This document shows positions 34,225-61,696 of a stretch of 64,000 nt of DNA, piece by piece (the first letter of the stretch is position 1; the number at the start of each line of letters is the position of its first letter). The notes under the pieces are model-generated. The model saw nothing but the letters and a program-made list of their open reading frames with translations. It ran no database searches and was not told the DNA's origin. This DNA comes from Anaerolineae bacterium (GTDB taxonomy: Bacteria > Chloroflexota > Anaerolineae > UBA4142 > SHND01). A program made the translations under genes and the position numbers. The stretch spans positions 1 through 64,000 of the forward strand of contig JADZCJ010000144.1 in the NCBI GenBank assembly GCA_020851635.1, given 5' to 3'.

Positions 34225-35193
34225 CTATTTGACGTTGATCGGCGTCAGCCCATGCAGATACAGGTAGAGCGCCTCCAATTCCACATCGTCCAATTTGCCG
34301 ATGGTTTTCCACGGCATGACCGGTGAGACTTGACGACCGGTCGGATCGATCCCGGTACGCATGGTTTTGAAAAAATCATCCTTGGACCAATTCGGCACAA
34401 TGACCGTGAGGTTTGATGCGCCGGGCGGCGCCGGAGGCGGCGCGTTGCCGGTGAGGTCGGGACCATGACAGCCGCGACAGTCCCCAAAGTTCGCAACATA
34501 CTCGCCATATTCTTTGGTCGCGGCTTTGGGCGGCGCAGTGACCGGTTGTATGGGGAGTTCGGCGCCCTCTGCCTTGATCATCCCCAGCGCGACAAGAGCG
34601 GCGAGGAGCGGAGAGGGACTGAGCGGGGGTCGCGTGCCTTCCACAGGCTGCGAGTGCCGCAGATACGCAATCACGGCTTTGGCGTCATCATCGCTCAAAT
34701 AGCGCACGGGAAAGAACCCCATCGCGGTCAAACGCCCATCCGGCTCGACGCCGCTCCGCAGGATGCGGAAAATGTCGGCGTCAGAGAGGTCCTTGATTTT
34801 TCCCGCGGGAGTAATATTCGGTGGATAAACATCGCCCAGCGGAATTCCCGAGTCATCGCTCAGATTTTTGCCGCCGGTGAGGGGCAGTTCCCCATTTTGC
34901 GAGTGACAAGAGGCGCACAGAAATGCGGCGAGGTATTCGCCGCGCGCAATTTGCTCCGGCGTCCCTTCAATCGTGACGCTGACCGGCGCGACCGGATAAG
35001 GGCGCAACAGGTCGAACGTGCCCTTGCCGACTACGAGTGCTACCACCGCGAAAAGCACCGTGAGCAGTCCTGCGAGAATCGTGCCTCCCCATTTCACGAC
35101 GCCATTTTGGGAGCGCCACGCGCGGACCGCGACAAAGCCAAACGCGATGACCAGTGCAACGAGAAATGCAAGGAATAAAATATTGATCAACAT
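34225..35193 (-). CDS. Membrane-anchored diheme cytochrome c
   Basis: A 322-residue protein with two N-terminal membrane segments (about 3-23 and 34-56) and two class I cytochrome c domains outside the cytoplasm. Heme-binding motifs are CASCH (Cys93-Cys96-His97) and CRGCH (Cys239-Cys242-His243). Met ligands are probably in LTAMGFFP near 158 and SPVMPWK in the second domain. It should shuttle electrons at the membrane; partner unknown. The ATG at 35193 has a strong GGGGGAGAG upstream. The promoter lies beside an 11-bp phased repeat array. Confidence 0.88.
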   Translation of the reverse strand: MLINILFLAFLVALVIAFGFVAVRAWRSQNGVVKWGGTILAGLLTVLFAVVALVVGKGTFDLLRPYPVAPVSVTIEGTPEQIARGEYLAAFLCASCHSQNGELPLTGGKNLSDDSGIPLGDVYPPNITPAGKIKDLSDADIFRILRSGVEPDGRLTAMGFFPVRYLSDDDAKAVIAYLRHSQPVEGTRPPLSPSPLLAALVALGMIKAEGAELPIQPVTAPPKAATKEYGEYVANFGDCRGCHGPDLTGNAPPPAPPGASNLTVIVPNWSKDDFFKTMRTGIDPTGRQVSPVMPWKTIGKLDDVELEALYLYLHGLTPINVK

Positions 35194-35299: not shown

Positions 35300-35305
35300 A
35301 TTATA
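35300..35305 (-). promoter_or_regulatory. -10 element for the cytochrome c gene
   Basis: A perfect TATAAT on minus (35305-35300), giving a leader of about 100 bases. No consensus -35 is present; a degenerate unit of the 11-bp array falls where the -35 would be (about 35323-35331), as expected for an activator-dependent promoter. Confidence 0.6.
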
Positions 35306-35325
35306 GATGAAAAATGAGCCATTTC

Positions 35326-35386
35326 CTGCCCATTTTTTGACCAATTTTTGACCGATTCTTGACCCATATTTGACCTATTTTTGATG
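35326..35386. promoter_or_regulatory. Phased 11-bp direct repeat array (TTGACC units)
   Basis: TTGACC occurs at 35337, 35348, 35359 and 35370, with TTGATG at 35381: five units at exactly 11-bp spacing, each preceded by a T-tract. Weaker units appear at about 35326 and, in phase, TTGAAT at 35403. On minus the unit reads GGTCAA plus an A-rich spacer. The array lies between the cytochrome gene (minus) and an unknown membrane protein gene (plus). The helical-turn spacing suggests head-to-tail binding of a winged-helix regulator and possibly DNA bending. Confidence 0.75.
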
Positions 35387-35455
35387 CTACTATCCTAGCT
35401 TTTTGAATGATCCGAGCAAAAGCAAACTATTTACCGCTTGCCCAAGGAGGTCAAG

Positions 35456-36334
35456 ATGGCTCAACGTGCCTGGCTTTACTCTTTCGTGCGCATCGTCGCG
35501 CTCGCATTTGTGATTGCGACCGTCCATGCGATTGATTTTGCTGCGCTCACGTGGAGCGCCTCACTCGAGTCTTTTGCCTGGCTCCTGTTGATGGGGCTGC
35601 TGCAAGCGACAGTCCTTGGCTATGTGTTGATGCGTTCGGTATGGCGCGGCTGGAAACTAGTCGCCGCGTGGTGTGCCATTTACTTTGGCATCACCGTTTT
35701 CCAAACACAAATCGAAGCGATCGTCTTTTTGCAGTATTTCGTGAGCATCATTCCTGTGGATGCGATGCCCGCGATTGTGCTCAACGATGCCATTCGCGCG
35801 ATGCTCATCGCGCCGCTGGCTGTTGTCATCTTTGACAGATTCAAGCCGTCCGCATCACCGAAAGTCGGATCTCAGCCCTTGCGTTTAACTGCTTTGCAGT
35901 GGATTTGGAAAACCGGCGCGCTCGCCGTCATTTATGTATTTATTTACCTGCTATTCGGCTTGGTGGTTGCGAAACCATTAGCCGGCACAGCATTTGACGA
36001 ATATTATGGCAATTTGCAACTGCCCGGATGGTTTCTGCCGTTCCAGCTCATTCGCGGCGTCATATGGGTTTTGATCACCATTCCGATCATTCGGATGATG
36101 CGCGCCAGCTCGCGCGAAATTGCCCTGGGAGTCGCGCTCATGCTATCGGTTCCGATTGCATCGCTCGTCATTCCGTCGAACGAATTTATGCCCGCCCCCA
36201 TCCGTTTCGCACACCTCGTTGAACTGTTTACCTCCATGTTTGTCTTTGGGTGGATTGACCATTGGCTGTTGACGTGGCGCAGACAACCTAAAGCACAACA
36301 AACGAATTTGCGGGGCGCGTCGCACCCATCATAG
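35456..36334 (+). CDS. Polytopic membrane protein of unknown function
   Basis: I do not recognise this family. The 292 residues hold about eight hydrophobic segments. Charged loops contain DAMPAIVLNDAIRAM near 98-112 and EFMPAPIRFAHLVE near 240-253, and the C-terminus is short and basic. No enzymatic motif stands out. The start is well supported by AAGGAGG six bases before the ATG. It diverges from the diheme cytochrome gene and shares with it the phased 11-bp array, so common regulation and a redox or membrane-stress role are possible but not shown. Confidence 0.75.
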   Translation: MAQRAWLYSFVRIVALAFVIATVHAIDFAALTWSASLESFAWLLLMGLLQATVLGYVLMRSVWRGWKLVAAWCAIYFGITVFQTQIEAIVFLQYFVSIIPVDAMPAIVLNDAIRAMLIAPLAVVIFDRFKPSASPKVGSQPLRLTALQWIWKTGALAVIYVFIYLLFGLVVAKPLAGTAFDEYYGNLQLPGWFLPFQLIRGVIWVLITIPIIRMMRASSREIALGVALMLSVPIASLVIPSNEFMPAPIRFAHLVELFTSMFVFGWIDHWLLTWRRQPKAQQTNLRGASHPS

Positions 36335-38285: not shown

Positions 38286-38343
38286 GAGACGCAAAATCTT
38301 GGCGAGACGCAAAATCTTGGCGAGACGCAAAATTTTGCGTCTC
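38286..38343. repeat. Tandem GAGACGCAAAAT repeats ending in a perfect palindrome
   Basis: Two identical 18-bp units (38286-38303 and 38304-38321, GAGACGCAAAATCTTGGC) are followed by a 22-bp perfect palindrome with arms GAGACGCAAAA and TTTTGCGTCTC (38322-38343). The same palindrome core occurs at 61308-61329. It could also act as a terminator for the OB-fold gene. Confidence 0.85.
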
Positions 38344-44685: not shown

Positions 44686-44770
44686 GCAAATTGGAAATTT
44701 GCGTTCCCAGGGGAAATTTGCGTTCCCAGGGGAGATTTGCGTTCCCAGGGGAGATTTGTGTTCGCAGGGG
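44686..44770 (+). repeat. Palindrome copy 2 followed by four tandem 19-bp repeats
   Basis: GCAAATTGGAAATTTGC (44686-44702) overlaps the first of four 19-bp direct repeats at 44695-44713, 44714-44732, 44733-44751 and 44752-44770. Units 1 and 2 are identical (AAATTTGCGTTCCCAGGGG); units 3 and 4 carry one and three substitutions. Each ends in GGGG, so the leader of the cold-shock gene presents four Shine-Dalgarno-like steps, the last in use. Confidence 0.88.
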
Positions 44771-44775
44771 GAAAT

Positions 44776-51858: not shown

Positions 51859-52623
51859 CTAATCCTCTTTTTGTCTCCGCAAACGCTCCAGCTCGGCAGC
51901 AAGTTTTGCCAACTCTGCCTCGGCAAGGTCGGCGCGTTGTGCTTCTGCCGCCGCGCGCCCTGCCTCTGCCATCGCGCGCTCTGTCTCTGCCGCCGCGCGC
52001 TCTGCTTCCGCCTCTGCCTGCTCGAACGCTTCGTTGAATGTCGGCAACAACTCGCCGGTCTCGGGATTTCTAAGCCGCAAGAGCTTGTCCTCGGGGACAA
52101 AACTCAAGCCCAGCTCCCGGCTATACATCGAGCCATCTGCCTGCAGCTCAATGGGCTGGAAACCGCCGCCTACCAGTGTGAACCCCTGCAGTCGAGGTTT
52201 GAGATACTCATCCAAAGGATCAAAGAGGAAATATTCGCGCACGCCGAGCATTTCGTACAAACCGCGCTTGTTGGCAAGGTCCTGAATCCGGGTCCCCTTG
52301 GAGGTGATCTCGAAAACGACGGTCGGGCCCTTTCCCTCCTCCCACATCTTGTAGGTCCGACGCACGTGATTGCTGACTCCTTGGACCACAAACACATCGG
52401 GCACGACGAATTGGGTGATGTCTCCTTCCTCATGATACAGGAGCATGTTGGCAGAGACATAGATTTGGGATGCTTGCCGAAAATAATATTGGAGCGCCGC
52501 AAACAAATAGAGCATCGCCTGGATATGGATTTGCGTTTCACCCATGGGTTTGCCATCCGATTCGGGATATTCCAATTCCTTGCTCACCGGTAGGGGTTTG
52601 AGATGATTCAAAAGCTGTCCCAT
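51859..52623 (-). CDS. Uma2-family putative endonuclease with coiled-coil tail
   Basis: A 254-residue PD-(D/E)xK-fold protein. YHEEGDITQFVVPDVFVVQG contains the first acidic residue; GPTVVFEITSKGTRIQDLANKRGLYEMLGV holds the E..K-like second part; EYFLFDPLDEYLKP follows. Residues about 195-254 form a heptad-rich Glu/Ala coiled coil. Uma2 proteins are abundant in Cyanobacteria and Chloroflexota, often in many copies, with unknown biology. Confidence 0.85.
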   Translation of the reverse strand: MGQLLNHLKPLPVSKELEYPESDGKPMGETQIHIQAMLYLFAALQYYFRQASQIYVSANMLLYHEEGDITQFVVPDVFVVQGVSNHVRRTYKMWEEGKGPTVVFEITSKGTRIQDLANKRGLYEMLGVREYFLFDPLDEYLKPRLQGFTLVGGGFQPIELQADGSMYSRELGLSFVPEDKLLRLRNPETGELLPTFNEAFEQAEAEAERAAAETERAMAEAGRAAAEAQRADLAEAELAKLAAELERLRRQKED

Positions 52624-60385: not shown

Positions 60386-61216
60386 CTAGCTGTCATCACC
60401 CATATCTTGCGTTGGGCGCGGGGTCGCGGACGGCTGTTGACCGCCCGAATCTGTCGGGCGAGGTGTGTTGGTCGGCGTTGAAGGCGGTTTGGGTCCGGTA
60501 GTAGAAAAATTCACAGTCGCGGACTGGCACGATCCCGCGCTGCTGCCGGAATCCTCCACGCGGGTCGCATCCGTCTTGACAATCGCAATCTCGGAAATGC
60601 GTTGGAGGGTGTCCTTGTCCAGCACCCAGATATACCATGTGCCATCATGCGGCGCATTGGCATCAATATTGTGATAATAGTAACCCTTGCGGCGCGGGTC
60701 AGTCCCGGTACGATAGTCGTCGTTCGGGTCGGGACCGCCGTCCGGACCTTGCGAAATCCGCACCAACACATCATTTTTGCCGACGCTGCCTTCATATACA
60801 GTGCCTTCGATATAAGTACGCACATTCGGTCCGCAGCGAGACTCTTGAATGCGGTACAGAAATTGCGGCGTCGTCGGCTGCGGCACGGGACTAGCCGGAG
60901 GTGGGTCAGTCGGTTTGACTTGAGGCGGCGGGGGGCGACTGGTCGGCGGACTGGCGACGGTGGGTTCGTCAGAGTCTTCGGGCGCCGGCTCATTCGTCGG
61001 TGGCTGCGCAAAGGGGATGTCCGTAACCGCCACAATCGGAGTATCTTGACGGACCGGTTGATCCACGGCAACACGCGTCGGACGACGCGTCGCCGCACGC
61101 GAGCTGCCGCCGGAACGTGAACTCAATTGGACAATCGTGTCGGCGGTGCGACACGCCAGCGCAAAGGCGACGACAAAAAGCACAAGCGCAAGCGGCAAAA
61201 AACGTTTCGATCTCAT
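60386..61216 (-). CDS. Lipoprotein with Pro-rich spacer
   Basis: A 276-residue exported protein. The signal peptide ends in a lipobox (ALAC, Cys22). A Pro/Thr/Ser-rich spacer runs to about 118. A compact domain (about 119-245) contains CGPNVRTYIEGTVYEGSVG and YYYHNIDANAPHDGTWYIWV, consistent with a beta-sandwich, with two Cys that may pair. A second Pro/Thr-rich tail ends it. No function can be assigned; a surface-displayed binding domain is likely. Confidence 0.7.
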   Translation of the reverse strand: MRSKRFLPLALVLFVVAFALACRTADTIVQLSSRSGGSSRAATRRPTRVAVDQPVRQDTPIVAVTDIPFAQPPTNEPAPEDSDEPTVASPPTSRPPPPQVKPTDPPPASPVPQPTTPQFLYRIQESRCGPNVRTYIEGTVYEGSVGKNDVLVRISQGPDGGPDPNDDYRTGTDPRRKGYYYHNIDANAPHDGTWYIWVLDKDTLQRISEIAIVKTDATRVEDSGSSAGSCQSATVNFSTTGPKPPSTPTNTPRPTDSGGQQPSATPRPTQDMGDDS

Positions 61217-61307
61217 AAGTCAACTGTACGCAGAGGCGTTCAAAGGGCAAATCCGTTCATATCATGTTTTGCTGAGAACAAGATGAGAAAAAACGGGTCC
61301 CAGGCGC

Positions 61308-61329
61308 GAGACGCAAAATATTGCGTCTC
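61308..61329. repeat. GAGACGCAA palindrome
   Basis: GAGACGCAA (61308-61316), AATA, TTGCGTCTC (61321-61329). The arms are the same as in the element at 38322-38343. It lies 8 bases after the stop of the PII-like gene on minus and may double as its terminator. Confidence 0.75.
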
Positions 61330-61336
61330 TACGGCT

Positions 61337-61696
61337 TTATTCTGACGCGGGGACGGCGGGGTAGCCCCACACCCGGGTGACGGGCATGGTGAACATGATG
61401 TCGCGATGCCCCTGACCCAGGTCGGGAATCAGTTTCAGCACCGCATTGACCGCCTCGCTGCAGACGACATCGCTTTCAATCACCGAAAACAGCATCTGGG
61501 TGCGTTTTTCCTGGCTCTCGAGCACCGAGCGCAGAGATACGACGAACGGCAAATCGTCGCGCGAGTCGTCATGCCCGCGATGGCTGCTCGTGCTGTCCAC
61601 CAGCGTAACACCGGGGACACCGGCTGTCTCCCACGCCGTCAATATATCCGGGGTGAGCTCGGTATTATCAATCACCAGGACCAAGAGTTGCGCCAT
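61337..61696 (-). CDS. PII-like small protein next to a cation/proton antiporter
   Basis: A 119-residue protein whose alternating strand-helix pattern and ends (MAQLLVLVIDNTELTPDILTAW, then IMFTMPVTRVWGYP) resemble the PII/CutA-like ferredoxin fold. The middle (RDDLPFVVSLRSVLES) would form the T-loop region. It starts 22 bases after the antiporter stop, with GGGAGG before the ATG at 61696. PII-like proteins often bind nucleotides and gate a neighbouring transporter, which fits this arrangement, but the assignment rests on pattern only. Confidence 0.6.
   Translation of the reverse strand: MAQLLVLVIDNTELTPDILTAWETAGVPGVTLVDSTSSHRGHDDSRDDLPFVVSLRSVLESQEKRTQMLFSVIESDVVCSEAVNAVLKLIPDLGQGHRDIMFTMPVTRVWGYPAVPASE

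Follow-up and report, generated by a model that had tools for sequence, protein, structure and literature searches.

A phased array of TTTGACC boxes in an Anaerolineae genome, a predicted multi-box operator of an OmpR/PhoB-family response regulator associated with anaerobic energy metabolism genes

The window analysed here corresponds to positions 1-64,000 of contig C144 in an Anaerolineae genome assembly of 5.8 Mb (144 contigs, 97.7% complete, 3.2% contamination). Near its middle, two divergently transcribed genes, one encoding a diheme cytochrome and the other a predicted membrane protein, are separated by an intergenic region that contains a series of short direct repeats, each one helical turn from the next. 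The features of this locus are as follows.

34225..35193, minus strand: membrane-anchored diheme cytochrome c with CASCH and CRGCH motifs (Pfam Cytochrom_C / Cytochrome_CBB3), a possible divergent target
35300..35305, minus strand: -10 element TATAAT of the divergent cytochrome gene, by direct reading
35325..35331, plus strand: weak unit CCTGCCC, in phase (CTGCCC at 35326), 4 of 7 positions matching TTTGACC
35336..35342, plus strand: unit 1, TTTGACC, by direct reading
35347..35353, plus strand: unit 2, TTTGACC, by direct reading
35358..35364, plus strand: unit 3, CTTGACC, by direct reading
35369..35375, plus strand: unit 4, TTTGACC, by direct reading
35380..35386, plus strand: unit 5, TTTGATG, degenerate, 5 of 7 positions matching
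35385..35393, plus strand: candidate extended -10, TGC-TACTAT, of the membrane-protein gene, with TACTAT (35388) 12 bp past unit 4
35396..35401, plus strand: alternative -10, TAGCTT, a weak hexamer exactly 9 bp past unit 5, which is the usual spacing in the putative regulon described below
35444..35451, plus strand: ribosome-binding site AAGGAGGT of the membrane-protein gene, by direct reading
35456..36334, plus strand: 292-aa membrane protein with about seven predicted transmembrane segments, the gene at which the array points

The core TTGACC occurs at 35337, 35348, 35359 and 35370, four strong units in exact 11-bp steps (span 35337-35375), and TTGATG at 35381 makes a fifth, degenerate unit. 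Direct reading, simulation and an independent call by Tandem Repeats Finder (35330-35384, period 11, 5.0 copies) all bear out the positions and the phasing given in an earlier note on this DNA. Its count of seven steps was generous: the five contiguous units and the weak one at 35326 stand, but step 35392 reads ATCCTA and holds no unit, and the TTGAAT at 35403 is an isolated in-phase match two steps past 35381. The periodicity does not depend on the choice of motif, as the self-identity of positions 35326-35408 is 0.60 at a lag of 11 and 0.62 at a lag of 22, compared with approximately 0.13-0.44 at other lags. The five units together score 28 out of 30, while 21 was the best score among 3000 intergenic regions simulated with a Markov model. 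The cores of the four strong units are identical while the base behind TTGACC differs each time (A, G, C, T, in order along the array), a pattern suggestive of a constrained core and not of recent slippage. Elsewhere in the window, Tandem Repeats Finder also reports repeats at 38286-38337 (18 bp, 2.9 copies), 44693-44775 (19 bp, 4.3 copies) and 51932-52012 (21 bp, 3.9 copies).

All genome-wide statistics reported here derive from pattern searches with reversed controls. In the 5.8-Mb genome, the window array is the sole match to four TTGA units at 11-bp spacing with up to two mismatches (none for the reversed pattern), and it is the only four-unit array of this genome; arrays in relatives mostly have two to four units, so that the description of the operator as unusually long is justified. 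The search for further arrays that the earlier note had proposed returned shorter ones, for example near ccmEF and near nrfHA and a hydrogenase operon, and no second four-unit array. The cytochrome/membrane-protein pair with its array was looked for in relatives and not found. On the two points by which that note had suggested its proposal be judged, the outcome is thus divided: the gene pair is not conserved in relatives, yet shorter arrays exist elsewhere in the genome.

The box and its promoter context recur across the class. Aligned units consist of TTTGACC followed by four variable bases, and the composite pattern TTTGACC-N4-TTTGACC-N9-TAnnnT is found in 25 of 298 Anaerolineae genomes, at about 57 sites compared with about 12 for the reversed control; with two mismatches allowed, the counts within the genus are 103 and 38 in the control. 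Three consecutive units with at most one mismatch are present in 21 of the 298 genomes (three hits for the reversed control). When arrays of three to five units were chosen without any requirement for a -10 element, a -10 hexamer was found exactly 9 bp past the last unit, a signal that none of 5000 shuffles equalled at any distance; in two arrays, including one from contig C89 of the genome under study, the hexamer lies one step further, at 20 bp. Furthermore, TG occupies the extended -10 position at 26 of the 53 listed composite sites, far above its frequency at neighbouring offsets, and the search pattern did not require it. Class II activators are known to recruit RNA polymerase at promoters that have no good -35. 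Because of the fixed 9-bp distance and the TG excess, the composite sites look like real promoters of this type, in which the boxes would lie over the -35 region and no -35 hexamer would be needed. In the fhs promoters of family f2 (L277-L281, L284), further weak in-phase units (such as GTTGCACA and TCGGACA) lie upstream of two strong boxes, and the operators there therefore probably have four or more steps.

This recurrence bears directly on the view that the array is a neutral minisatellite generated by slippage. A row of five similar 11-bp units that has no second copy in the genome and is not kept together with the gene pair could be taken for one, and similar three-unit repeats are found in unrelated phyla among the matches listed: some assemblies of Bacteroidales, Stahlbacteria, WOR-3 and Prosthecobacter each have several sites with YTTGACC three times at 11-bp spacing, and such triples may be minisatellites or belong to other regulons. 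Also, nine of the 21 Anaerolineae genomes with three-unit arrays do not encode the regulator discussed below, and some of their arrays lie in apparent coding DNA, which indicates that such repeats can arise in other ways. However, many genomes have this box, with identical spacing and at a constant distance from the -10, in two- to four-unit promoters ahead of genes that are not homologous to one another, and in the window the four strong cores agree despite the changing base behind them. We rejected a minisatellite origin on the strength of this recurrence at unrelated promoters and consider it quite improbable.

A candidate for the protein that would recognize the boxes is suggested by family f7 (two genera), in which an array adjoins the genes for a histidine kinase and an OmpR-type response regulator. 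The orthologue of that regulator in the genome under study is G000:C83:42308-43030 (64% identity). It lies on a separate contig, so the pairing of the window array with this regulator depends on the assembly bin; all six genomes of the genus carry an orthologue. The recognition-helix region reads YVKRYIWYLR in both the C83 protein and the f7 regulator, and the form [YV/YI]KRY[IV]WYLR is common to all orthologues in which it was readable. With orthologues defined by at least 61% identity and at least 305 bits, the clade is present in 28 of the 298 genomes, and its distribution follows that of the sites closely: composite sites occur in 22 of the 28 regulator-positive genomes and in three of the 270 others (Fisher p ~7e-25; p ~3e-11 after leaving out the two nearest families). 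One of the calculations behind these values took 299 rather than 298 as the number of genomes, which changes p negligibly. Within family f7 itself, two genomes (G116, G170) have neither regulator nor sites and two (G024, G185) have both.

Linkage points in the same direction. The regulator gene lies near an array in families f1, f7 and f13, namely in the genome under study (G000, about 3 kb), in G024, in G185 (about 1.6 kb) and in G030, where an array directed at nrfH is about 2.7 kb away. The linked array of G000 is located between nrfHA and an operon for a CoA-transferase, a radical-SAM protein and a NiFe hydrogenase. The regulator so associated consists of a receiver and a Trans_reg_C domain, the make-up sought for an operator of the OmpR/PhoB type. 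Since the same clade both co-occurs with the arrays and is linked to them, the proposal in the earlier note that this is a head-to-tail operator of that type gains support, to which the 9-bp distance to the -10 in relatives adds. The closest NCBIfam model to the candidate regulator is MtrA (215.6 bits, cut-off 300), and the best 25 of its 103 NCBIfam hits include neither a curated equivalog above its cut-off nor an ArcA-type model.

In most other families a histidine kinase gene lies directly upstream of the regulator gene, but it is absent from this position in the genus studied here, and a search of the genome for a partner kinase did not find one. The best match, C89:74140 (43%), was rejected as it has no linked OmpR-type regulator, and the kinase at C55:108807 is, by sequence reading, of a different type and is followed by an ANTAR-like regulator.

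The boxes might instead be recognized by some other OmpR-family response regulator of this genome rather than by the C83 protein. At least 15 such regulators give similar full-length matches and share the fold, the next best being 48-53% identical, and in family f44 two other OmpR-type regulators are encoded just upstream of the fhs array. However, it is the C83-type clade that tracks the sites over the 298 genomes in the co-occurrence test of this clade and that is linked to arrays in three families, and the f44 genomes also have a C83-type regulator, encoded elsewhere. Recognition by another family member is therefore unlikely, and we regard the array as a multi-box operator for the C83 response regulator, a prediction to which we assign a probability of about 0.8.

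The genes downstream of the sites outline a putative regulon. In regulator-positive genomes they encode formate-tetrahydrofolate ligase (in families f2 and f44, in the former with CO dehydrogenase nearby), pyruvate:ferredoxin oxidoreductase, hydrogenase operons, heterodisulfide-reductase-type proteins, NrfH, NrfA, CcmE and CcmF, a PhsA-like molybdopterin oxidoreductase and sulfide:quinone reductase. In the genome under study, ccmEF, a multiheme cytochrome operon, a 2-oxoacid:ferredoxin oxidoreductase cluster and a gene for a DUF418 protein are preceded by sites. Some of these names come from reading the translated sequence rather than from family searches. Judged from such annotations, the common theme would be anaerobic energy metabolism and its redox carriers, and the set appears largely coherent, although some targets, such as DUF418 and CBS-domain proteins and transporters, do not obviously fit.

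The window promoter itself fits the regulon pattern imperfectly. The composite match in the window (35369-35401) ends in the weak TAGCTT at the regular 9 bp; TGC-TACTAT offers a better hexamer and is 3 bp off the 9-bp rule. The orientation of the boxes points to the membrane-protein gene as the likely target. Its product has no Pfam or NCBIfam match, and homologues are found in two genomes of the same genus (about 35% identity) and in another family (32%). A distant paralogue (26%) is encoded on contig C83 (approximately 60797-61483; L013, L220) within the 2-oxoacid:ferredoxin oxidoreductase cluster, and there a box array lies upstream of the first gene of the cluster.

The array might instead mainly control the divergent cytochrome gene, through the same regulator. 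The TATAAT at 35305-35300 is present where the earlier note had placed it, but the weak unit does not supply the -35 that was ascribed to it: the hexamers 16-18 bp from TATAAT read AGGAAA, CAGGAA and GCAGGA, none of them -35-like. In G030 (L332), a cytochrome orthologue with 45% identity is preceded by CGCGACC-N4-TTTGACC-N8-TAATCT pointing at the cytochrome gene, a hint that it may be a regulon member there, and cytochrome maturation genes are among the putative members. However, the boxes face the membrane-protein gene, just as those of catalogued arrays with a clear target face the gene that follows them, and no boxes are found upstream of the same-genus cytochrome orthologues (69-75% identity), which have other neighbours. 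Of the control of one or both divergent genes originally suggested, the part concerning the membrane-protein gene is thus favoured, while an equal role at the cytochrome gene is not; given the different surroundings of its same-genus orthologues and their lack of an array, the cytochrome is a possible, unproven target, and its being the main one is doubtful. Upstream of two cytochrome orthologues (L327, L331), copies of CGTAACG spaced 12 bp apart precede a TATA-like -10, without an 11-bp array; these repeats are possibly a site for another cytochrome regulator.

In the mechanism that we envisage for the C83 operator, a histidine kinase, presumably responding to a redox or anaerobic signal, would phosphorylate the regulator, which would then occupy successive TTTGACC boxes in head-to-tail fashion along a single face of the double helix. 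Once bound, the protein would bring in RNA polymerase at promoters that have a -10, in many cases extended by TGn, and no good -35, and its effect would accordingly be activation rather than repression. At the window array it would act on the membrane-protein gene (35456-36334), and the divergent cytochrome promoter could be affected too. By extension, it is fairly probable that in some Anaerolineae this two-component system governs anaerobic energy metabolism as a master regulator, by way of TTTGACC boxes spaced at 11 bp and set 9 bp from the -10, with the Wood-Ljungdahl pathway, hydrogenase, heterodisulfide-reductase-type proteins, PFOR, NrfHA and cytochrome-c maturation as targets, to which the window array, the longest in its genome, would add the membrane protein and perhaps the diheme cytochrome. 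Anaerolineae are abundant in sediments and digesters, and gene regulation in these bacteria has been little studied. The combination of a box, a promoter geometry and a specific regulator yields a testable prediction of how acetyl-CoA-pathway, hydrogenase and cytochrome genes are switched on, and would tie a membrane protein without a family match to redox metabolism.

The kind of operator is already known, in the form of ArcA-like direct repeats, whereas the regulator and its regulon appear to be undescribed; a full-text literature search of open-licence papers found no described regulon of this kind. The Pho boxes of PhoB are similar in being 11-bp direct repeats over the -35 region that are bound head to tail by an activator of the OmpR/PhoB family. 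However, the Pho box is CTGTCAT and the box here is TTTGACC. The link to Pho drawn in the earlier note was dropped, since no phosphate-starvation genes are among the targets examined and the candidate regulator scores 187.6 bits against the PhoB model, below the cut-off of 296.2. In Bacillus, genes for anaerobic respiration and cytochrome c maturation are controlled by the OmpR-family protein ResD, which resembles the predicted system in family and target theme and belongs to another phylum. MtrA recognizes a pair of short, imperfect direct repeats (PMC5650626) and differs in its targets, which concern cell division and development in actinobacteria rather than anaerobic metabolism.

CarH operators share the head-to-tail geometry, with three to four tandem 11-bp repeats nnnnTnnACAn, one of which includes the -35 (PMC9304148), and their T..AC core is also seen here, so a B12-dependent MerR repressor of the CarH/LitR type could in principle bind the array. 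CarH, however, is a MerR-type B12 photoreceptor whose core ends in ACA, and all four strong units have T, AC and then C. The six MerR_1 matches in this 97.7% complete genome are frames of 146-219 aa, too short for MerR plus a B12-binding domain, and no carotenoid or photolyase genes are among the targets. Lacking a candidate gene and with the wrong last core base, this option was rejected as extremely improbable. A closer likeness is to ArcA of E. coli, an OmpR/PhoB-family protein with receiver and winged-helix domains whose regulon also concerns redox and anaerobic energy metabolism, and whose sites are direct repeats of two to five elements with 11-bp centre-to-centre spacing (PMC3798270); ArcA mostly represses, whereas the promoter geometry in Anaerolineae suggests activation.
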